From: Gemmiger formicilis | GTDB lineage: Bacteria > Bacillota > Clostridia > Oscillospirales > Ruminococcaceae | Length of the DNA: 64,000 bases | Direction of reading: 5' to 3' | Assembly (NCBI RefSeq): GCF_900167555.1 | Contig: NZ_FUYF01000007.1 | Span: 1-64,000 of the forward strand | Shown here: positions 1 through 10,543 of the stretch, one piece after another | Layout: each line of letters begins with the position of its first letter | Position numbering within the stretch: position 1 is the first letter of the stretch | Notes under the pieces: model-generated | Told to the model about the DNA's origin: nothing | What the model saw: only the letters and a program-made list of their open reading frames with translations | The model's database searches: none | Made by a program: the position numbers and the translations under genes

Positions 1-861
1 GTTAAGGTTCGCGAGGTCAAGAAGCCTGAAGTCTCCCTGACCAAGATCAAGATGATCTTCACCAAGGCTGACGGCGCTACCTCTGTTTTCGCTACCGGTG
101 AGCTGACTGCTGCTTCCGAGTGGTATGTCCTGCCCGATGCTGCTGGCGTCATCAATCTGGCTGACGGCGAGAAGCTGACTGGCTGGACTCTGTTCCAGAA
201 CGGTGCTAAGTATGCCGCTGGCGAGAAGGTCACCTTCGAGTCCCTGAAGGAACTGGCTGGCAAGAACGTCGATAAGGACGGTGTTGCTTACCTGAACTTC
301 TACGCCGACCTGAAGACCGACGTCGAGCTGAAGAACATCACCATCAAGTATGTCGAGGATAAGGACGGCGCTCAGGAAGATGTTGCTGCTCCGCAGAACA
401 ACTTCACCGCTAAGGACGAGTTCACCATCCTGACCGACAACCTGTACGACGGCAAGGTTCCCGCTGGCAAGAAGCTGATCGGCTGGCAGTACAAGAACGG
501 TGGCAAGACCACTAACTTTGTCAAGGGCGAGCATGTCAAGTTCGACACCCTGAAGGCTCTGCTGAACGGCAACTGGGATAACGAAGGCAATGCCTGGGTT
601 ACCCTGACCCCCGTCTTCCAGGATGTTAAGAGCGACAATGGCACCTCTTCCTCCAGCGCTTCCTCTTCCAGCAACACGACCAACACTTCTGCCAGCCAGA
701 AGCAGGTCGTCAAGGCTGCCGCTGCCCCGGCTAACACCACCAAGGTTCTGCCTAAGACCGGTGCTACCAATGCTGCTCCGCTGATCGGCGGCAGCCTGGC
801 AGTTGTTGCCCTGCTGATGGGCTACGGCGTTTACGGCCTCGTTCTGCGCAAGAAAGACTAA
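1..861 (+). CDS. LPXTG cell-wall-anchored surface protein, 3' part
   Basis: The frame is open from base 1, so the gene starts before the window; 286 codons plus the stop are visible. The C-terminus is a full sortase signal: LPKTG (codons for VLPKTG lie near 748-765), a hydrophobic segment, then the basic tail RKKD. Before it is a Ser/Thr/Asn-rich linker (SSSSASSSSNTTNTSAS) typical of wall-spanning regions. The visible ectodomain holds two related blocks (GWTLFQNGAKYAAGEKVTF and GWQYKNGGKTTNFVKGEHVKF) that resemble InlB B-repeat (Flg_new) modules. Expected to be covalently attached to peptidoglycan by a class A/B-type sortase; no sortase is in the window. Ligand unknown. Codons are strongly biased (GCT, AAG, GAC), which suggests high expression. 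A strong terminator follows at 958. Confidence 0.88.
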   Translation, partial: VKVREVKKPEVSLTKIKMIFTKADGATSVFATGELTAASEWYVLPDAAGVINLADGEKLTGWTLFQNGAKYAAGEKVTFESLKELAGKNVDKDGVAYLNFYADLKTDVELKNITIKYVEDKDGAQEDVAAPQNNFTAKDEFTILTDNLYDGKVPAGKKLIGWQYKNGGKTTNFVKGEHVKFDTLKALLNGNWDNEGNAWVTLTPVFQDVKSDNGTSSSSASSSSNTTNTSASQKQVVKAAAAPANTTKVLPKTGATNAAPLIGGSLAVVALLMGYGVYGLVLRKKD

Positions 862-957
862 TTGTGTGGTTTCCCCATAGGGTAGCGGTACCCAATGCTG
901 CCGCTCCTGGTTGGGCGCGTTAGCATCCACCAAGCCCCATGTGATTCAACACAACAA

Positions 958-997
958 TACCCCCGCACGGTGCAAGCCGTGCGGGGGTACTTTTTTG
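958..997 (+). terminator. Intrinsic terminator after the LPXTG gene
   Basis: A perfect 13-bp stem (958-970 with 977-989) has a 6-nt loop and is followed by a run of T at 991-996. It ends transcription of the LPXTG gene about 100 bases past its stop. The 862-957 gap shows no gene. Confidence 0.88.
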
Positions 998-1049
998 TCA
1001 TACAGGCATAGGGATATGGGCGGTATAGCAGGCGGGCATCCGCTGCCTG

Positions 1050-1279
1050 CTGCTGCGCTGCGCCGGGTCAATCATGTGGACCTGTCGGCGGCGCAGCGGT
1101 ACGGCATCACGGTGCTGCGGGTGCCGGGCTACAGCCCCGAGGCAGTGGCCGAGCACGCCATGGCGCTGGCCGCGAACCGCCGCATCTGCAAGGCGTATAT
1201 CAAGGTGCGCAACAACAATTTTTCGCTTGATGGGCTGCTGGGGTATAACCTGTACGGCTCGGCGGCCGGTATGGGGTGA
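1050..1279 (+). pseudogene. D-2-hydroxyacid dehydrogenase (D-lactate dehydrogenase-like) fragment
   Basis: The translation of about 1060-1270 reads NHVDLSAAQRYGITVLRVPG, then YSPEAVAEHAMALAANRRIC, then VRNNNFSLDGLLGYNLYG. This matches the segment of LdhA-type D-lactate dehydrogenases that runs from the substrate-binding region to the start of the NAD-binding domain. Nothing N-terminal precedes it and the Rossmann GxGxxG part is gone: the frame stops just after SAAGMG at 1279. It is an internal fragment without start or C-terminus, so it cannot be functional. It lies between the LPXTG terminator and the decayed NACHT fragment, so this stretch is a scrap heap produced by insertions and deletions. 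Confidence 0.72.
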
Positions 1280-1313
1280 TGAATCAGGTGACCAACGCAG
1301 GGAAAAATCCGGC

Positions 1314-1712
1314 GTTTTAGAGGAAGACGAATGCAATAATACGCTTCTTCTTTTGGATGGCTATAACGAATTACCGTCAATCACTTGCCAGATGAATTTT
1401 ATTCTGGATATCGCATCGTACCAGGAACAGTATCCGAATAGTACTATCGTAGTAGCTAGCCGCACAAAAATGCAGTATGCTGATGCGCATGCTTTTGTAA
1501 GTGGTGATGCCGATTATGCCTCGCTGGAAATCTTAAATTAGCTCAAGCACTGCTACATTCTGGTGTTGGAAAGGGCTGCAATAGAGAAAGCGATTGGTGC
1601 TAAAATCGAGACGCAGGAAGAATATGAAACATTGTCTACGCCGTTCTACATAACATTGTACGGCAAGGCAGCTGGAGTTCTTGCAACAGCAGAGAGTTTA
1701 ATCGCTCTATGA
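1314..1712 (+). pseudogene. NACHT-type NTPase fragment with in-frame stop
   Basis: The reading frame contains NNTLLLLDGYNELPSITCQM, the Walker B region of NACHT/STAND NTPases (LLLDGxxEL), followed by IVVASRT, which fits the sensor-1 strand. A TAG at 1539-1541 interrupts the frame. Without a frameshift the same frame continues to 1712 with AAIEKAIGAKIETQEEYETL and STPFYITLYGKA, like the L-x-x-PF-x-L-x-L segment that follows the NACHT core. Walker A and the effector and sensor domains are missing. NACHT proteins are often anti-phage or signalling ATPases; this one is a relic. GC content is clearly lower than in the neighbours, in keeping with acquired DNA. Confidence 0.6.
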
Positions 1713-1893
1713 CATCCGGGCGACAGAGCAGCCACAGCAGTATCGTCATCTGGTGGACGAGAAAAAATGCGCCCAGACAGAGCACCGCTATGGCCCCATC
1801 ACAGGGAAATTCGTCCTCTACCGTGGGAAAAGCCAAGTGGTAGAGGGCATTCAATATCAAAATGTGGAAGAATACCTGCGCACCCTTGTGTGA
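1702..1893 (+). pseudogene. Unrecognised ORF remnant upstream of the recombinase
   Basis: An open frame without a start codon runs from 1702 to a TGA at 1891-1893 and encodes about 63 residues (begins SLYDIRATEQPQQYRHLVDE, contains HRYGPITGKFVLYRG, ends EEYLRTLV). The composition looks coding and the end lies 31 bases before the recombinase start. It looks like the tail of a mobile-element gene whose 5' end was lost where it meets the NACHT fragment. The family was not recognised. Confidence 0.4.
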
Positions 1894-1924: not shown

Positions 1925-3745
1925 ATGGCAAAAAATAAAGACTGTATTGCTGTGTATTCCCGAAAGTCAAAGTTTACCGGCAAGGGTGAGAGCATCGGCA
2001 ACCAAGTCGAACTGAGCCGGGAATATATCCGCACTCACTATGGGGATGCCTATGCGGAGTCGATGGTCGTCTATGAAGACGAAGGCTTTTCCGGCGGCAA
2101 CCTGAACCGCCCGGACTTCAAGCGGATGATGAAGGCAGCCCATGAGCACAAATTCAAGGCAATCGTCGTGTACCGCCTTGACCGTATCAGCCGTAATGTC
2201 AGCGATTTTTCCACCTTGATTGAAGAATTAAGTCGGTTGGACATTGCCTTTGTTTCCATCCGGGAACAGTTTGACACCGGCACGCCGATGGGTCGCGCCA
2301 TGATGTACATTGCCTCGGTTTTCTCGCAGCTGGAACGCGAGACGATTGCTGAGCGCATCCGCGACAATATGCACGAACTGGCAAAGACCGGCCGCTGGCT
2401 GGGCGGAACGACCCCGACGGGGTACGCATCGGAGAGCGTCAAGCACATAACGGTGGACGGTAAATCGAAAAAGGCCTGCAAGCTGAAGCTGGTCCCGGAA
2501 GAAGCAGATACGATTCGGCTGATCTACAAGATTTTTCAAGAATCGGATTCACTGACGTACACGGAAGCGGAGCTGATGAAGCGCGGCATCAAGACGAAAA
2601 ACGGCAAATACCACACGCGCTTCTCCATCAAGTCGATTTTGCAAAACCCTGTGTATGTTATAGCCGACGATGAAGTGTATAACTACCTTGTAAATAAGGA
2701 TGCAGACCTCTTCTCGGACAAAGCGGCCTTTGACGGTGTACATGGACTGATGGTCTACAATCGAACCGATCAGGAGAAAGGACGTGCCACAAGGTATCTG
2801 TCGCCGGAAGAATGGATCGTATCGGTGGGGGAGCATCCCGGTATTATTCCCGGCAGGGAGTGGATACGGATACAGGAATCTTTGTACCGCAATAAGTCGA
2901 AAGCCTACCGCAAACCGCGCGGCAATGAAGCGCTGCTGACGGGACTTCTGTTCTGCCGCTGCGGCAGTCGAATGTATCCGAAGCTGAGCAAGCGCAAGAC
3001 GGCGGACGGAAAACGAATTTACACCTACGTCTGCAAAATGAAGGACCGCAGCAAGCATAAGCTGTGTAATGAGCGGAACGCCAACGGCAATACGCTGGAC
3101 TTGGCAATCATCGAGCAAATCAAAGTGATGGAGGACAATCAGGGCACGTTCATCGCACAGCTGGAGCAAAGCCGAAAATTCTACACAGGCAACCGCACCG
3201 ACTATGAGGACCGCCTTGCAGCTGCCCGCCGCGATAAGTCCGAGGCCGAGAAGAAGGTAGAGGCGCTGGTGGACTCTCTCGCGGCTGTGGATGACAGCAC
3301 AGCGAAAGGGCTTGTCATCAAGCGAATCGAGAAGCTGAGTCAGGAGTGTCGGAACATTGATTCCCGGATTCAGGAGTTGGAGAGTCTGACAGAGCAGTAC
3401 CACCTTAGTGACATTGAGTTTGATGTGTTCCGGCAGCTGCTGACGATGTTCAAATCTAATATTGATACCATGACCGTGGAGGAAAAACGCGCAGCAATTC
3501 GTACTCTTGTCCGCAAGGTGTTTTGGGATGGCACGAACGCCCATGTGGTGCTGTTTGGGGTGCCAGACGAAGAAATCGAGTACCCGGACCTTCCGACGGT
3601 AAGCGGCGGCAGCGATGATGAGGACGACACGGATGATTTGGAGGCGTTTGCCGATGTGGATTACGAGGACGAGGAGGATGACTCCTTGGGAAAAACGCAG
3701 CCCCTCAGCTCCGCAAAAGCGCGTTGGGGGGAGGATAGCGAATGA
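1925..3745 (+). CDS. Large serine recombinase (SpoIVCA-like)
   Basis: A 606-aa site-specific recombinase. The N-terminal resolvase catalytic domain (about 1-150) has the motif AVYSRKS with the likely nucleophile Ser12 and the arginine-rich YRLDRISRN. A Recombinase domain follows (about 170-280), then a zinc beta-ribbon (about 335-385, starting LLFCRCGSRMY, with two further Cys), then a coiled coil (about 410-500). The last ~50 residues are strikingly acidic (SGGSDDEDDTDDLEAFADVD onward). RBS AAGGAGG at 1911-1917 supports the ATG. Such enzymes integrate or excise elements without homology. The stop TGA (3743-3745) lies inside the motif AATGA, where the sigma-factor fragment begins, so the gene ends exactly at the probable element border. 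The arrangement matches skin-type elements that split sigK. No other integration, conjugation or phage gene is visible next to it. Confidence 0.92.
   Translation: MAKNKDCIAVYSRKSKFTGKGESIGNQVELSREYIRTHYGDAYAESMVVYEDEGFSGGNLNRPDFKRMMKAAHEHKFKAIVVYRLDRISRNVSDFSTLIEELSRLDIAFVSIREQFDTGTPMGRAMMYIASVFSQLERETIAERIRDNMHELAKTGRWLGGTTPTGYASESVKHITVDGKSKKACKLKLVPEEADTIRLIYKIFQESDSLTYTEAELMKRGIKTKNGKYHTRFSIKSILQNPVYVIADDEVYNYLVNKDADLFSDKAAFDGVHGLMVYNRTDQEKGRATRYLSPEEWIVSVGEHPGIIPGREWIRIQESLYRNKSKAYRKPRGNEALLTGLLFCRCGSRMYPKLSKRKTADGKRIYTYVCKMKDRSKHKLCNERNANGNTLDLAIIEQIKVMEDNQGTFIAQLEQSRKFYTGNRTDYEDRLAAARRDKSEAEKKVEALVDSLAAVDDSTAKGLVIKRIEKLSQECRNIDSRIQELESLTEQYHLSDIEFDVFRQLLTMFKSNIDTMTVEEKRAAIRTLVRKVFWDGTNAHVVLFGVPDEEIEYPDLPTVSGGSDDEDDTDDLEAFADVDYEDEEDDSLGKTQPLSSAKARWGEDSE
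3741..3745. other. Candidate crossover core of a sigK-type attachment site
   Basis: AATGA is shared by the end of the recombinase gene (GAA TGA) and the first sigma codons (AAT GAG, Asn-Glu). In SigK/SigE proteins the matching residues are the conserved I-E-N-E. My recollection of the B. subtilis skin element is that recombination takes place in a short AATGA repeat at these same codons. That is recalled knowledge; the coincidence of position is visible here. The partner core should lie upstream of the window. Confidence 0.5.
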
Positions 3746-4085
3746 GCTCCGCATGGACCTGCGGCGGGGGCGGCGGACGGGGGTGACGCTGTCGCTGCAG
3801 GAGCCGCTCGAGGCGGACGGGCAGCTGACGCTGGCGGACACCCTGCCCGATGAAGTCAACATGGAGGCCGGCTGCGAGAGCCGCGCCGACGCCGCCCGGC
3901 TGCGTGCGCTGGTGGACGCTCTGCCCGCCCGGGAACGCGCTATTATGCGGCAGCGGTATGGATTTGACGGTGCGCCCAAGACCCAGCAGCAGACGGCGCA
4001 GGCGCTGCACATCAGCCGCAGTTATGTTTCGCGGCTGGAAAAGCGCGCACTCGAGTACCTGCGCGGCCGGTGGCCGGCGGAATGA
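3741..4085 (+). pseudogene. sigK: 3' half of a sigma-K/sigma-E-type sigma factor gene
   Basis: About 114 codons, starting IANELRMDLRR (family: CIENEILMHLR). Next come TLSLQEPL and LTLADTLPDEV (the region 3/4 linker), then a full region 4 helix-turn-helix: LPARERAIMRQRYGF, KTQQQTAQALHISRSYVSRL, EKRALEYLRG. The ISRSYVSRxEKRAL signature is nearer SigK than SigE. Region 2 and the start codon are absent, and the homology begins where the recombinase gene stops. It could be the spoIIIC-like half of a gene rejoined by excision during sporulation, or a dead remnant; the 5' half is not in the window. No RBS or start suggests independent translation. Confidence 0.75.
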
Positions 4086-4126
4086 CAGGAACGGCGCAAA
4101 GAGGATGAAATCAACTAAAAAATGAT

Positions 4127-4137
4127 GGGGGGGGGGG
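4127..4137. repeat. G11 homopolymer
   Basis: Eleven consecutive G in the non-coding gap after the sigma fragment. Such tracts slip during replication and sequencing, so its length may vary. It is not in a reading frame and is not placed within the -35/-10 region of the blaI-type gene. Confidence 0.8.
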
Positions 4138-4158
4138 TACACGAAATACCATTTGCGG

Positions 4159-4285
4159 CAAAAGTGTGGCGTGATGCGGCAAAACGTGCCACATATATGC
4201 CACACTTTTGTAAACTGTCGAATCTATGACATAAATCGGGAAATGTACGAAGCTGCCCGCCAAATGTGCCAGATTTGTAAACTGT
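4159..4285. repeat. Operator-like inverted and direct repeats upstream of the BlaI-type gene
   Basis: CAAAAGTGTGGC (4159-4170) is repeated as its perfect inverse complement at 4199-4210. TTTGTAAACTGT occurs at 4207-4218 and again at 4274-4285. The block lies 45-170 bases ahead of the promoter at 4329. It could bind a regulator or be a terminator or remnant structure; no function can be assigned from sequence. Confidence 0.45.
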
Positions 4286-4328
4286 TATGAAATAACCAGA
4301 AAAACTTGAAAAAATTTTCGGAAACTCA

Positions 4329-4357
4329 TTGACATTTTGCTGACAAGCGGATACTAT
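4329..4357 (+). promoter_or_regulatory. Promoter of the BlaI-type gene
   Basis: -35 TTGACA (4329-4334), 17-bp spacer, -10 TACTAT (4352-4357). The TACTAT/TGTAG stretch at 4352-4370 resembles the half-sites bound by BlaI/MecI repressors, so autoregulation is possible (inference). Confidence 0.75.
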
Positions 4358-4394
4358 AGGAGTGTAGACATTTTTTAAAGCGAGGTATACCAAC

Positions 4395-4763
4395 GTGCAT
4401 CTGACAAAAAGCGAACAACAGATCATGGAAATTTTTTGGCAGGCGGATCACGCGATGGCACAGACGGAAGTCGTGAAAACCTGTGTTGACCGTAAATGGA
4501 AGGAACGCTCGATTTTTTCGATGCTGAACAGCCTGATGGAGAAGGGTGTTCTGCGGGAGGTTGGCTTCGTGCGCAGTGGTAAGACCTATGCCCGCACGTT
4601 TGAGCCTGCCATGTCCCACGCTGAGTACTTGGCCTCGGTCATTGCAGAGCAGCTGCCCGCGAAGCAGCTTCCCGAGCTGATCGCGGCCCTGATGCAGAAG
4701 GTGGAAACGACCCCTGCCATCCAGAAGGAAATGCGTGCCGCCCTGCGTGAAAACGCACAGTAA
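4395..4763 (+). CDS. BlaI/MecI/CopY-family repressor
   Basis: A 122-aa winged-helix protein. MHLTKSEQQIMEIFW at the start and TEVVKTCVDRKWKERSIFSM form the recognition domain typical of BlaI (residues about 1-75). The C-terminal part (about 80-122) is the dimerisation arm cleaved by BlaR1-type proteases in the family. Start is GTG at 4395 with AGCGAGG about 10 bases upstream. No BlaR1/MecR1 sensor protease, beta-lactamase or copper pump adjoins, so it is an orphan repressor; its targets are unknown. Transcribed from 4329 and ended by the hairpin at 4779-4822. Confidence 0.85.
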   Translation: MHLTKSEQQIMEIFWQADHAMAQTEVVKTCVDRKWKERSIFSMLNSLMEKGVLREVGFVRSGKTYARTFEPAMSHAEYLASVIAEQLPAKQLPELIAALMQKVETTPAIQKEMRAALRENAQ

Positions 4764-4778
4764 TCAATGATTTGTTCA

Positions 4779-4822
4779 AAAAAGCACCGCCGACCCGTGA
4801 CCCGGATCGGCGGTGTTCTTTA
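4779..4822 (+). terminator. Intrinsic terminator after the BlaI-type gene
   Basis: CACCGCCGA (4785-4793) pairs with TCGGCGGTG (4807-4815), followed by TTCTTT. A-rich sequence before the stem means it may also stop transcripts arriving from the aminotransferase on the other strand. Confidence 0.75.
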
Positions 4823-6388: not shown

Positions 6389-6474
6389 GTAGGGGCCGCA
6401 TATATGCGGCCCGCAGCTGTATGGCGGGCGGACGTCTGCGGGAAGGCCGCGGGCCGGGCATGCCCGGCCCCTAC
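6389..6474. repeat. GTAGGG hairpin doublet (REPIN-like)
   Basis: Begins GTAGGGGCCGCATATATGCG and ends with an inverted unit GGGCCGGGCATGCCCGGCCC then CTAC. It is two self-complementary units in opposite orientation around a short variable middle. It lies in the 5' leader of the next gene, so the mRNA will carry both hairpins. Confidence 0.8.
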
Positions 6475-6504
6475 CGGTGCATTACGATCAGGAGTATTAT
6501 CACT

Positions 6505-7102: not shown

Positions 7103-8233
7103 ATGATCCCTTTTAACGTACCGCCCTGCGTGGGCGACGAGCTCGACTACGTCAAGCAGGCCATCGACTCTCATAAAATCTGCGGCGACGGCGCCTTTAC
7201 CAAGCAGTGCAACGCCTGGTTGGAGGAGCGCTTCCACGCCCAGAAGGTCCTGCTGACCACCAGCGGCACTACGGCGCTGGACATGGCCATGCTGCTGTGC
7301 GATATTCACCCCGGTGACGAGGTCATTCTGCCCAGCTTCACCTTCTCCAGCACCGCCACCGCCGCTGTGCTGGCCGGGGCGAAGCTCGTCTTTGTGGACA
7401 TCCGCCCTGATACGATGAACATCGACGAGACGAAGATCGAGCAGGCCATCACCGATAAGACGCGGGTCATCATCGCCATGCACTACGCCGGTGTCGCCTG
7501 TGAGATGGACACCATCATGGACATTGCCCGCCGCCATGACCTCAAGGTCGTCGAGGACGCGGCGCAGGGCGTTATGAGCAGCTACAAGGGCAAGGCACTG
7601 GGCACCATCGGTGATTTCGGCTGCTACTCCTTCCACGAGACAAAGAACTACTCGATGGGCGAGGGCGGCGCACTCGTCATCAACAATCCCGCGTACAATG
7701 AGCGCGCGGAGATCCTGCGCGAGAAGGGCACGAACCGCGCCAAGTTCTTCCGCGGTCAGGTGGACAAATACACATGGGTCGATTTTGGCGACAGCTACCT
7801 GCCCAGTGAGCTGAACGCCGCCTATCTGTGGGCGCAGCTGCTCCATGCCGACGAGATCAACGACAACCGCATGGCGACCTGGAACGCCTACCACGATGCC
7901 TTCCGGCCGCTGGCCGACGCGGGCAGGGTCGAGCTGCCCACCATCCCGGCGGACTGCGTGCACAACGCCCACATGTTCTACCTGAAATGCAGGGATCTGG
8001 AGGAGCGCACCGCGCTGATCCGCTACCTGAAGGCAAACGATATTCTGGCCGTGTTCCATTATATCCCGCTGCACTCCGCCCCGGCGGGCCAGAAGTTTGG
8101 CCGCTTTGACGGCGCGGACGTCTACACCACCGCCGAGAGCGAGCGCCTCGTCCGCCTGCCGATGTACTACGGCCTGACTGAGGCAGACCGCAATAAGGTC
8201 ATTGCCAAGGTCCTGGAATTTTATGCGCAGTAA
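7103..8233 (+). CDS. rffA: RffA/WecE-type sugar-nucleotide 4-aminotransferase
   Basis: A 376-aa DegT/DnrJ/EryC1/StrS aminotransferase. Diagnostic stretches: IPFNVPPCVGDEL at the N-terminus, TTSGTTALDMAMLL, SFTFSSTATAAVLAGA, VEDAAQGVMSSYKG, and SFHETKNYSMGEGGAL with the PLP lysine in HETKNYS, the hallmark of dTDP-4-amino-4,6-dideoxygalactose transaminase. It converts a nucleotide 4-keto-6-deoxyhexose plus glutamate into the 4-amino sugar. RBS GGAAGGAAGG precedes the ATG. It heads a seven-gene operon of lipid-linked sugar transfer genes. The gene is complete; the exact sugar nucleotide is inferred from the family. Confidence 0.9.
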   Translation: MIPFNVPPCVGDELDYVKQAIDSHKICGDGAFTKQCNAWLEERFHAQKVLLTTSGTTALDMAMLLCDIHPGDEVILPSFTFSSTATAAVLAGAKLVFVDIRPDTMNIDETKIEQAITDKTRVIIAMHYAGVACEMDTIMDIARRHDLKVVEDAAQGVMSSYKGKALGTIGDFGCYSFHETKNYSMGEGGALVINNPAYNERAEILREKGTNRAKFFRGQVDKYTWVDFGDSYLPSELNAAYLWAQLLHADEINDNRMATWNAYHDAFRPLADAGRVELPTIPADCVHNAHMFYLKCRDLEERTALIRYLKANDILAVFHYIPLHSAPAGQKFGRFDGADVYTTAESERLVRLPMYYGLTEADRNKVIAKVLEFYAQ

Positions 8234-9722
8234 GGCCCTGCCAGGCTGGGCGCACACACTCTGCACCGCTGCCGCCGCGCTGGTGTTCCTGCTGGCGTAT
8301 GAGCTGGTCGTCTACAGGGTGCCGGTGACGGAGATCTTCCTGCCGGTCAGCTCCTGGAGCGACGAGGTCATCTACAGCAAGCAGCTGGCCGCCGCCGTGC
8401 AGTACGGCGCGCCGCAGGGGTACTTCGGCTTCAATGAGTCGCACGCCGCCGTCGGCACCTACGCCGCGTGGGGGCCGGCGGTTTTTCTGGTCTATGCGTT
8501 GCCGGGGCTGCTTTTGCGCGGGCAGAATGCCTTTTTGTGGTGCAACCTGCTGTTCGTCGTGCTGGGCTGGACGTTTTTCGCCCGGGCCGCACGGCTTGGC
8601 TGGAAGCGCCAGCTGGCCTTTGCCGCGGCGCTGGCCGCCATGAACGCGCCGATCCGCTATGTGTTCTCCGCCATGCAGGAGCCGCTGCATTATGCGCTCA
8701 TGCTGGCGGTGCTGGGCTGCGGCATTCTGGCGCGGCGGGACAAAAGCCGCGCCGCGTGGGCGGGGCTGTGTGCGCTGTGCGCGGTTGCCACGCTCGTGCG
8801 CCCCTATGAGGCCGTGCTCTGGCTGTTCCCGCTGGCGCTGTGCCGGCAGGACCGCCGCCGCATCGCTGTCTGCGTGGCGGGCGGGACGGTTTCCTTGGGC
8901 GGCACGCTCGTGCTGATGTCCAAATTCTACGCGCCCTACTTCTTTACCAATGTCGATGTAAGCCCGCTGCAGGAGCTGGCCCGCGGGCAGGTGGTCTCCG
9001 CCGTCAGGGACATGGCACACAAGCTGCTGGACGCCCTGCGCACCGTGGCCGAAATGCTGGCCGACCAGCTGGCAAACCGCAGCGGGGGACAGTACCTGCT
9101 GTTTTTCCTGCTGCTGGGCGTGACGCTGGTCTGCCTGATTGTGGATGCCCGCGCCGGGCGGCCCGTGTTCTGGAAGGGCTGCGCTGCCGTGACTGCGGTC
9201 ATCGTTTTTCTGGCGCTGCTGCTGATGTACCGCCCCGTTGAGGGCTCCCGCCATACGGTTGTACTGGATGTGCTGCTGCTGGCGGCGCTCCTTGTGGAGG
9301 ACGCCCGCCCCGCCGCGGGCACGGCAGCCGCCGCGCTGGTGCTGGCCGCGCTCGGCGTGCTGAATCTGGCAGACGGCTTCACCATGCCGCGCTACAGCGC
9401 CGAATGGGACGCCGCGGTGCAGCAAATCGAGGCCGCGCTGACCGAGAGCCGGTCCGCTGTGACGAGCGCCGACCCCTGGGACAGCACCGTGGCCTACGCT
9501 TTTGGCGACCCCGTGCACTGTGGTTTGCTCTACGGCGTGCCGGACGGCATGGGCATCCAGTTTGACGAGGCCGCCTACCTGACCGACCCGGCCCATGAGA
9601 TTCATTCCCGCTACGTCCTGACCGCCGCCGACACCCCCACCGCCGCCCGCTTACAAGCCGACGGCTGGACGGTGCTGTACGAGAGCGACAGGGGCGTGCT
9701 GTACGAGCACGGCACAATGTAG
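8223..9722 (+). CDS. Polytopic GT-C-like transferase, paralogue 1
   Basis: A 499-aa membrane protein with about 10-12 helices and a soluble C-terminal tail of ~110 residues. An acidic pair in the first outer loop (SSWSDEVIYSKQ) and YGAPQGYFGFNES fit ArnT/PMT (GT39/GT83-like) enzymes that take sugar from a polyprenyl phosphate. Start set at 8223, inside the end of rffA (11-bp overlap), which implies translational coupling. Its paralogue at 10545 shares the GGPQGYFG and WGP...YALPGLL stretches. The stop TAG is the TAG of the repeat that starts at 9719, so insertion of the repeat may have reset the C-terminus. Donor and acceptor unknown. Confidence 0.75.
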   Translation: MRSKALPGWAHTLCTAAAALVFLLAYELVVYRVPVTEIFLPVSSWSDEVIYSKQLAAAVQYGAPQGYFGFNESHAAVGTYAAWGPAVFLVYALPGLLLRGQNAFLWCNLLFVVLGWTFFARAARLGWKRQLAFAAALAAMNAPIRYVFSAMQEPLHYALMLAVLGCGILARRDKSRAAWAGLCALCAVATLVRPYEAVLWLFPLALCRQDRRRIAVCVAGGTVSLGGTLVLMSKFYAPYFFTNVDVSPLQELARGQVVSAVRDMAHKLLDALRTVAEMLADQLANRSGGQYLLFFLLLGVTLVCLIVDARAGRPVFWKGCAAVTAVIVFLALLLMYRPVEGSRHTVVLDVLLLAALLVEDARPAAGTAAAALVLAALGVLNLADGFTMPRYSAEWDAAVQQIEAALTESRSAVTSADPWDSTVAYAFGDPVHCGLLYGVPDGMGIQFDEAAYLTDPAHEIHSRYVLTAADTPTAARLQADGWTVLYESDRGVLYEHGTM

Positions 9723-9974
9723 GGGCCGGGCATGCCCGGCCCGCGGCCTTCCCACAGGCGTCCGTCCTATAGCTGTGGGTCGATGCAAGCATCGCCCCCC
9801 GCACCGTAGGGGCGGATTCCATATCCGCCCGGGCCGTCTGCCCCAAACGCCGATTTTGCGTTGTAGAGACTGTAGGGGCGAACATTGTTCGCCCGCCAGC
9901 CTGACGTAGCAGCGTCCTTTCGGGATGGCCCTTCCCGTGGCAAACGGGCACGGGCGGGCAATGCCCGCCCCTAC
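9719..9974. repeat. Cluster of GTAGGG hairpin units
   Basis: Several units in series: GTAGGGGCCGGGCATGCCCG at 9719, a unit with GGCGGATTCCATATCCGCC near 9810, one with GGCGAACATTGTTCGCC near 9873, and an inverted unit ending GGCATTGCCCGC-type arms and CCCCTAC at 9974. Each unit is self-complementary although the arm sequences differ. It occupies the whole gap between two operon genes. Confidence 0.8.
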
Positions 9975-10006: not shown

Positions 10007-10543
10007 ATGAACACACCCACTCTCCCCGTCCTGACCGGCACAGCGGTCACGCTGCGCCCCATCACCGACGCCGACACGGACCTTATCGTCAAGTGGCGCA
10101 ACACGCCGTCTGTCGTGCAGAACTTCATTTTCCGCCAGACCTTCACGCCGGAGATGCACCGCAGCTGGCTGGCGACGAAGGTCGCCACCGGCCAGGTCGT
10201 GCAGTATATCATCCTCGACAACGCCGACGGCAAGCCCGTTGGGTCGGTCTATTACCGCGATATTGACAACCACAACCGCAGCGCCGAGTACGGCATCTTC
10301 ATCGGTGAGGAAAGCGCCCGCGGTAAGGGCATTGGCACCGAGACAGCCCGCCTGTTCACACAATTCGGCGTTGATACGCTGCACCTGCACCGCATCAGCC
10401 TGCGCGTGCTGGCCGAAAATGCCGCCGCGCGCCGCAGCTATGAAAAGGCCGGCTTTGTGCAGGAAGGTGTTTTCCGCGATATGGAGCTGCTGGACGGAGC
10501 CTACCGCGACGTCGTCTTTATGGCCAAGCTGGCGGAGAACTGA
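10007..10543 (+). CDS. GNAT N-acetyltransferase (RimJ/RimL type)
   Basis: A 178-aa GNAT protein. VTLRPITDADTDLIVKWRN opens the domain, and the acetyl-CoA pyrophosphate loop is EESARGKGIGTETARLF (R/Q-x-x-G-x-G/A), followed by NAAARRSYEKAGFVQEGVF. RBS AAGGAG lies ahead of the ATG. Many members acylate ribosomal proteins, but position between an RffA aminotransferase and lipid-linked sugar genes suggests acetylation of the new 4-amino group, as WecD/RffC or PseH-type enzymes do (inference). The stop is one base before the next start, so it is co-translated with the following gene. Confidence 0.82.
   Translation: MNTPTLPVLTGTAVTLRPITDADTDLIVKWRNTPSVVQNFIFRQTFTPEMHRSWLATKVATGQVVQYIILDNADGKPVGSVYYRDIDNHNRSAEYGIFIGEESARGKGIGTETARLFTQFGVDTLHLHRISLRVLAENAAARRSYEKAGFVQEGVFRDMELLDGAYRDVVFMAKLAEN

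Follow-up and report, generated by a model that had tools for sequence, protein, structure and literature searches.

Why should a serine recombinase gene end inside what looks like the 3′ half of sigK in a genus, Gemmiger, that is usually described as non-sporing? In Bacillus and Clostridioides, sigK is split by the skin element, which the serine recombinase SpoIVCA excises in the mother cell, and elements in sigK have mostly been described in spore formers of the Bacillus and Clostridioides types. The stretch of DNA analysed here (the window) comprises bases 1–64000 of contig C58 (135,978 bp) of a Gemmiger formicilis draft genome (G000; 92 contigs, completeness 99.67%). According to an initial annotation, sigK is split here by a skin-like element or by what is left of one, and our analysis supported this proposal: the 5′ half was found on another contig (C54), the two ends of the element pair with each other, and an empty site with the same flanks exists. 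At the sequence level, we regard a sigK gene split by a skin-like element as established, and the developmental excision of the element as likely. Very probably, what lies in the window is the right end of an integrative, skin-like element in Gemmiger sigK, one that is integrated by a large serine recombinase (LSR) and excised in the mother cell via a small protein. In the open-access literature searched, we met no report of such elements in Gemmiger or related bacteria.

The two halves of sigK and the ends of the element

The recombinase ORF (1925–3745) ends in the TGA of AATGA at 3741–3745, and the SigK-like frame is read from the same bases (AAT GAG CTC from 3741) to a stop codon at 4083–4085, both as first annotated. 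A better fit of this fragment to another sigma factor had been named as a reason to abandon the proposal; it scored 73.3 bits against SigK (PRK05803) and 66.4 bits against SigE (PRK08301), a slight margin in favour of SigK. The 5′ half was correctly said to be absent from the window, which opens at base 1 of contig C58, and the absence is explained by this contig edge. The features are collected in Table 1.

Table 1. Features of the element and its flank (window coordinates unless a contig is named)
Feature	Position	Strand	Basis or remark
Wall-anchored surface protein, C-terminal part, cargo	1..861	+	LPKTG by eye; Gram_pos_anchor 18.4 bits (cut-off 20)
Terminator-like inverted repeat and T run, behind surface protein gene	949..998	+	86% complementary
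ATPase gene, 3′ remnant	1705..1890	+	tblastn, 64 residues, 71.9% identity
LSR, 606 aa, full length	1925..3745	+	Resolvase, Recombinase and zinc ribbon domains
Right arm of attachment site	3715..3739	+	Pairs with left arm from C54:183035 onward
Core AATGA	3741..3745	+	AATG common to left junction; A from sigK completes recombinase TGA
sigK 3′ part, 114 codons and stop	3741..4085	+	Profile scores, joining with C54, alignment to L051
BlaI/penicillinase repressor-like regulator, chromosomal flank outside element	4395..4763	+	PF03965
Conserved small gene, ~65 aa, candidate directionality factor	C54:183189-183419	minus	G000, opposite end from recombinase

A search of G000 with the SigK profile located the 5′ half on contig C54 (182687 to 183034), 2.6 kb short of the contig end. 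A 5′ half ending in IEN and AATG had been predicted upstream of the window, and it is present, on this other contig. The C54 frame reads ...ASRCIEN and then departs from sigK, and when C54 and the window were joined at AATG a single open frame was obtained (...RCIEN-ELRMDLRR...). The suggested comparison of the joined protein with SigK and SigE gave 205 versus 169 bits, a wider separation than that of the 3′ fragment alone; the joined protein fell below both curated SigK cut-offs, as did the uninterrupted gene of a relative. The SigE gene is separate and lies elsewhere in G000, and no second sigK was found in a profile search of this genome. The profile search also gave a weak SigK-like match to another, 260-aa sigma factor encoded at C58:125278–125919 (L012).

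The empty site was found in G. formicilis DFI.6.10 (L051), where sigK is uninterrupted and the flanking genes are the same, including the BlaI/penicillinase repressor-like gene downstream. The C54 flank aligned to L051 up to position 10349 and the window from 10346, leaving an overlap of four bases, and window 3741–4795 aligned to L051 10346–11390. The short repeat AATG found at both junctions restores the sigK frame exactly. Outside the element, a G run (4123–4137) directly follows the sigK stop codon and is a possible slippage tract, and a short dispersed repeat at 6389–6475 and about 9718–9754 has several matches in a G013 region and in L051.

A sigma-E-like promoter lies 17 nt upstream of sigK and agrees with the consensus at 13 of 15 positions, a score matched by a fraction of 0.001 of simulated regions, and the start of the gene is hydrophobic and, by eye, pro-sequence-like. 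The dN/dS ratio between G000 and the uninterrupted gene of G014 was 0.116 for the 5′ half and 0.263 for the 3′ half, and that between G034 and G003 was 0.064 and 0.090 respectively; the uninterrupted pair G014–G003, taken for comparison, gave 0.180 and 0.284. To judge by these ratios, both halves of the split gene are under purifying selection.

No sequence overlap was found between the ends of C54 and C58, and the middle of the element is missing from the assembly. The two ends could be linked by their attachment-site arms. The right and left arms of G000 form a palindrome in which 14 of the 16 variable positions agree, compared with ten for the best of 12 foreign left arms, and over 13 elements own-arm pairing beat all but 2 of 20,000 permutations. 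Since the two ends make up one private palindrome, both contig ends belong to one element. In two other genomes the halves lie on one contig with identical junctions, 12.5 kb apart in G034, a Gemmiger genome consisting of one contig, and 28.9 kb apart in G007.

The attP pattern was also searched for in viral contigs (two matches) and in 396 family genomes (eight genomes matched). The one exact genome match (G205) and the two viral matches were considered as free circles and rejected as chance matches, since no recombinase reads into them; the seven matches with one mismatch were all right junctions carrying a recombinase and the sigK 3′ half. Thus no free element circle was found by this motif in the viral contigs or the 396 genomes, and no sigK-joined state was seen alongside the split state among the G000 contigs.

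Recombinase, candidate directionality gene and cargo

The LSR gene lies next to the 3′ part of sigK, and the two genes are co-directional. In the integrated state its catalytic domains are complete, and the protein ends in GEDS(K/E), followed by a stop codon whose last base belongs to sigK. At E ≤ 1e-60, the LSR was detected in four of 35 Gemmiger genomes, one copy each and always at the sigK junction, these being exactly the four in which sigK is split at this site. The closest recombinase among 50,697 phage records, that of Terrisporobacter phage TPELB_ph1, is 39% identical.

At the opposite end, the ~65-aa gene was present in 12 elements of one comparison, in G076 and in all 11 loci of another comparison (weak in G150), mostly reading in the opposite direction to sigK; the 3.6-kb element of G100 and the left pieces of G119 and G162, both incomplete, gave no match to it. 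Against Pfam its protein matched nothing, and the best PHROGs hit was not significant (E 0.016). The size and conservation of the gene, by analogy with CD1234 of C. difficile, make it a candidate directionality factor. Sigma-E-like sites upstream of it clearly beat shuffled sequences in two of 12 regions (fractions 0.0 in G007 and 0.015 in G117); the fraction was 0.05 in G000 and 0.07 to 0.935 in the other nine. As only two regions were clear, a sigma-E promoter before this gene was dropped as evidence.

The cargo of the G000 element comprises a DUF4352 lipoprotein and a sortase on C54 and the wall-anchored protein in the window. The start of this surface protein is probably the truncated ORF at the C54 end, which encodes the start of a secreted protein; as the contig ends do not overlap, this link across contigs is an indirect one. 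Between the surface protein gene and the recombinase gene, window 1021–1541 holds decayed pieces which, by eye, we take to be D-lactate dehydrogenase- and NACHT-type ATPase-like. The ATPase gene of which the window keeps a remnant is intact ahead of the recombinase in the G203 and G137 elements. Other elements carry other genes: a [NiFe] hydrogenase large subunit (by profile) with other hydrogenase and maturation genes (by eye) in G034, glycosyltransferases and other polysaccharide genes (by eye) in G007, and, in G203, BrxL, BrxC (in two pieces), BrxP, a DndA/SspA-like desulfurase and MobC, a BREX-like defence set. There were no phage genes among the G000 proteins scanned, the middle of that element being missing from the assembly, and no phage structural genes were noticed among the element ORFs scanned, a subset of all ORFs.

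These features suggest how the element may work. The recombinase would have integrated it at the IEN codons of sigK, by recombination between attP and attB. In sporulating cells, the small protein would serve as the recombination directionality factor that allows excision by the recombinase in the mother cell; sigK, with its sigma-E-like promoter, would be restored there, and the spore chromosome would keep the element. The element would also serve as a vehicle for cargo, here the lipoprotein, the sortase and the wall-anchored surface protein.

Distribution in Gemmiger and beyond

The genus sample consisted of 35 genomes and included records named Gemmiger formicilis. Besides G000, the gene is split at this site in G034, G007 and G020; for G020, only the 3′ half and part of the recombinase were recovered, from the end of a contig. 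In 27 of the 35 genomes the sigK match was nearly full length; in three of these (G013, G033 and G005) the gene is broken at a second site, behind the ISRSYV of region 4, with conserved sequence following the cut (L052 10001–10639 on G013:C85, L043 and L046 respectively). The second-site insert of G013 is ~13.5 kb long and encodes an unrelated serine recombinase, and sigK resumes after it at SRIEKHALKHL. Four genomes gave no sigK match in the profile search, only SigE. Spo0A was above the cut-off in 35/35 genomes (weakest in G011), and a SpoIIID homologue was found in 35/35, below the curated cut-off in each. One further assembly, G008, contains on contig C863 (L066, from position 7877) a sigK 3′ half that shares 99.4% identity with the G020 copy across 1120 bp but lies behind different DNA with IS21-like genes; it probably comes from another strain in the bin.

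Could the split be an artefact, or the element be dead? An artefact of assembly or binning would mean that the 3′ half came from another strain and that the genome's own sigK is intact. Such mixing does happen, as the foreign 3′ half in G008 and a recombinase contig unlike the intact sigK in G305 illustrate, but G000 has no other sigK, the window is syntenic with the G. formicilis flank, the attachment arms of the element pair with each other, and in G034 and G007 one contig spans the whole split; we consider this explanation hardly credible. A dead element deserves more weight, though it too appears improbable: here a lineage that has given up sporulation would have lost a working sigK to the insertion, and no excision would now take place. 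The decayed neighbours (the ATPase remnant and a helix–turn–helix (HTH) remnant at the left end), the four genomes without a sigK match and the non-sporing description of the genus all fit such a history. It is at odds with the open state of both sigK halves, the recombinase and the small gene, with purifying selection on the halves, with the close agreement of the attachment arms and with the retention of Spo0A and SpoIIID homologues throughout the genus sample. We keep to an element that is probably excised in the mother cell.

The right-end motif, searched for with two mismatches in the 396 family genomes, occurred at 50 places in 47 genomes, compared with four for the reversed control. Part of this excess is probably ordinary ribosome-binding-site context, and so we counted only places with both a recombinase and a sigK 3′ half. 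The junction of recombinase, GGATAGC[A/G]AATGA and sigK 3′ half was found in 11 of the 30 loci examined out of the 50 (own locus included), with recombinases 52–65% identical to that of the window (own locus excluded). The same junction was met again in further genomes, and follow-up, which took in several of the other 20 places, gave both halves or the right junction in more. In total, right junctions were found in 22 family genomes and left junctions added 18, so that sigK is split in at least 40 of 396 sampled family genomes (G305 among them being doubtful) and at least 28 of 126 genera, a lower bound given that each search covered only part. In G305, an intact sigK and the sigK 3′ piece on the recombinase contig were considered as two states in one assembly; the two sequences do not match, which points to mixing, and the genome counts as doubtful within the 40. 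The carriers include a genus usually called non-sporing.

In a separate order sample of 394 genomes, 11 of the 16 genomes outside the family with the HTH domain described below have it directly behind the sigK 5′ half. These left junctions fall in six further families, making seven families of the order in total. Complete elements range in size from 3.6 kb (G100) to 28.9 kb (G007). Between G203 and G137, which belong to two genera, the recombinases differ by a dN of 0.034 and a dS of 0.43, and the sigK halves by a dN of 0.43 and 0.56, with dS saturated or 1.4. The recombinases are thus far closer than the sigK halves beside them, indicating that the elements move between genera. As they carry useful genes (hydrogenase, polysaccharide, surface proteins and BREX-like defence), a developmental gene serves as a dock for a trade in cargo between species. 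If excision works, sporulation in these commensals would be testable by a single PCR. The main interest lies in the element family, its cargo and, if true, a recombinase gene that splits itself.

The recombinase frame in relatives and comparison with known systems

This last possibility was raised by the elements of G007, G203 and G137. When their ends were joined, as in the circle form, the LSR stop codon was lost and the LSR frame stayed open for ~200 codons, passing into a double-HTH protein that in these genomes sits directly behind the sigK 5′ half. A search with the HTH domain in the family and order samples gave 39 loci, 34 of them directly behind a sigK 5′ half and five away from sigK (G661, G490, G717 at a contig end, G441 and G495). 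In 32 of the 34 (exceptions G134 and G710) the domain is in the LSR frame and open from the junction on, although the sequences are related and do not amount to independent trials; roughly 26 of these 32 have no ATG ahead of the conserved part. Ten complete elements contain one frame of 767–834 codons over the joined ends. In seven of these ten, the LSR precedes the sigK 3′ half in every case, and its integrated stop codon lies one codon past the core in six and 15 codons past it in G291. Residues just past the junction are conserved in the LSR frame in several elements.

The counts depend partly on how the loci were found. Among elements found by the right-end motif, the HTH domain is in frame in G007, G203 and G137 and, as far as the contig end that cuts it, in G048 and G401; it is out of frame in G134; G273, cut short by a contig end, is counted in neither class; and the domain is absent or decayed in G000, G034, G336, G267, G239, G059, G392, G076, G119 and G162. 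The other 29 of the 34 HTH loci and seven of the ten complete elements were found with the HTH domain itself as query, a selection effect. In the window's element the frame continues for only 25 codons past the joined ends and the HTH extension is decayed; a 41-residue HTH remnant at the left end of G000 is in the sigK frame.

As the frame is continuous into the HTH domain over the joined ends, attP appears to lie inside a recombinase–HTH gene in these relatives. An LSR frame that continues into an HTH domain at the sigK junction is new to us. We lean, with some reserve, towards a sigK-specific element family in gut Clostridia built on a self-splitting LSR–HTH gene, with the window's element as a derivative without the HTH domain and with mother-cell excision restoring both genes. 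Integration into sigK would cut the recombinase gene, sigK completing its stop codon and the double-HTH domain being left behind the sigK 5′ half; excision would restore host sigK and the full-length recombinase–HTH protein together. Such a fused protein would then be made, and the two forms of the recombinase could set the direction of recombination.

A rather unlikely, though by no means negligible, alternative is that the HTH protein at the left end in the relatives is made from the integrated state, either from a weak start of its own or through −1 frameshifting out of the truncated sigK frame. In 34/39 loci it sits just downstream of the sigK promoter and 5′ half, many loci have GTG or TTG codons, and its frame is −1 relative to sigK, all of which agrees with such expression. 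The frame that it shares with the recombinase in 32/34 loci, open over the junction and mostly without an ATG, is harder to reconcile with it, as is the conservation of post-junction residues in the recombinase frame.

The position of the break had been likened to the B. subtilis site. In the excerpted source, the B. subtilis skin recombines at AATGA and its recombinase gene adjoins the 5′ half in the opposite direction (PMC10745906); the likeness holds at the level of the motif, with AATGA at both sites. Both are serine recombinase elements in sigK. In Gemmiger, however, the recombinase gene has the 3′ half as its neighbour and reads the same way, sigK supplies the last base of the recombinase stop codon, and the cargo observed does not look like that of a phage. 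For C. difficile, the text available describes in skinCd a serine recombinase (CD1231) and a small directionality factor (CD1234) within the sigK element, and places skinBs and skinCd at different sites (PMC5025042). The Gemmiger element resembles skinCd by description in having a serine recombinase and a small, here candidate, directionality gene; it differs in that its sigK has a start that looks, by eye, like a pro-sequence, whereas the C. difficile gene lacks one. The gin element of Bacillus cereus ATCC10987, in the part of the report at hand, is a non-phage element in gerE with restriction genes that is excised in sporulation (PMC5595907). It likewise is a cargo-bearing, non-phage element in a sporulation gene, but it targets gerE and has three recombinases. 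Genes of phage origin are thus common in elements of the skin kind without being a requirement.

For a self-split recombinase gene, the nearest parallels lie further afield. Archaeal suicidal (SSV-type) integrases have their attachment site inside the integrase gene, which is cut on integration, and a 2021 review, in its accessible portion, describes self-disrupting recombinases as exclusively archaeal and as tyrosine recombinases (PMC8371274). The elements of the relatives, rather than the window's copy, share an attP inside the recombinase gene; however, the archaeal tyrosine recombinases lose the catalytic enzyme on integration, whereas here a serine recombinase would keep its catalytic part and lose a C-terminal HTH domain. 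Should integration indeed cut the recombinase gene in this way, that gene would be a bacterial serine-recombinase counterpart of those integrases. Integration-dependent immunity in mycobacteriophages, as set out in the extract available, relies on an attP in the repressor gene, integration into a tRNA gene altering the repressor's C-terminus (PMC9262239). Common to both is an attP inside a gene whose C-terminus integration changes, but here that gene would be the recombinase gene and the target is sigK.

One viral contig (L100, 9400–10100) showed a B. subtilis-like arrangement, with a sigK 5′ half beside an opposing recombinase 45% identical to that of the window, at the same CIENA junction, and it also carries a homologue of the ~65-aa gene.
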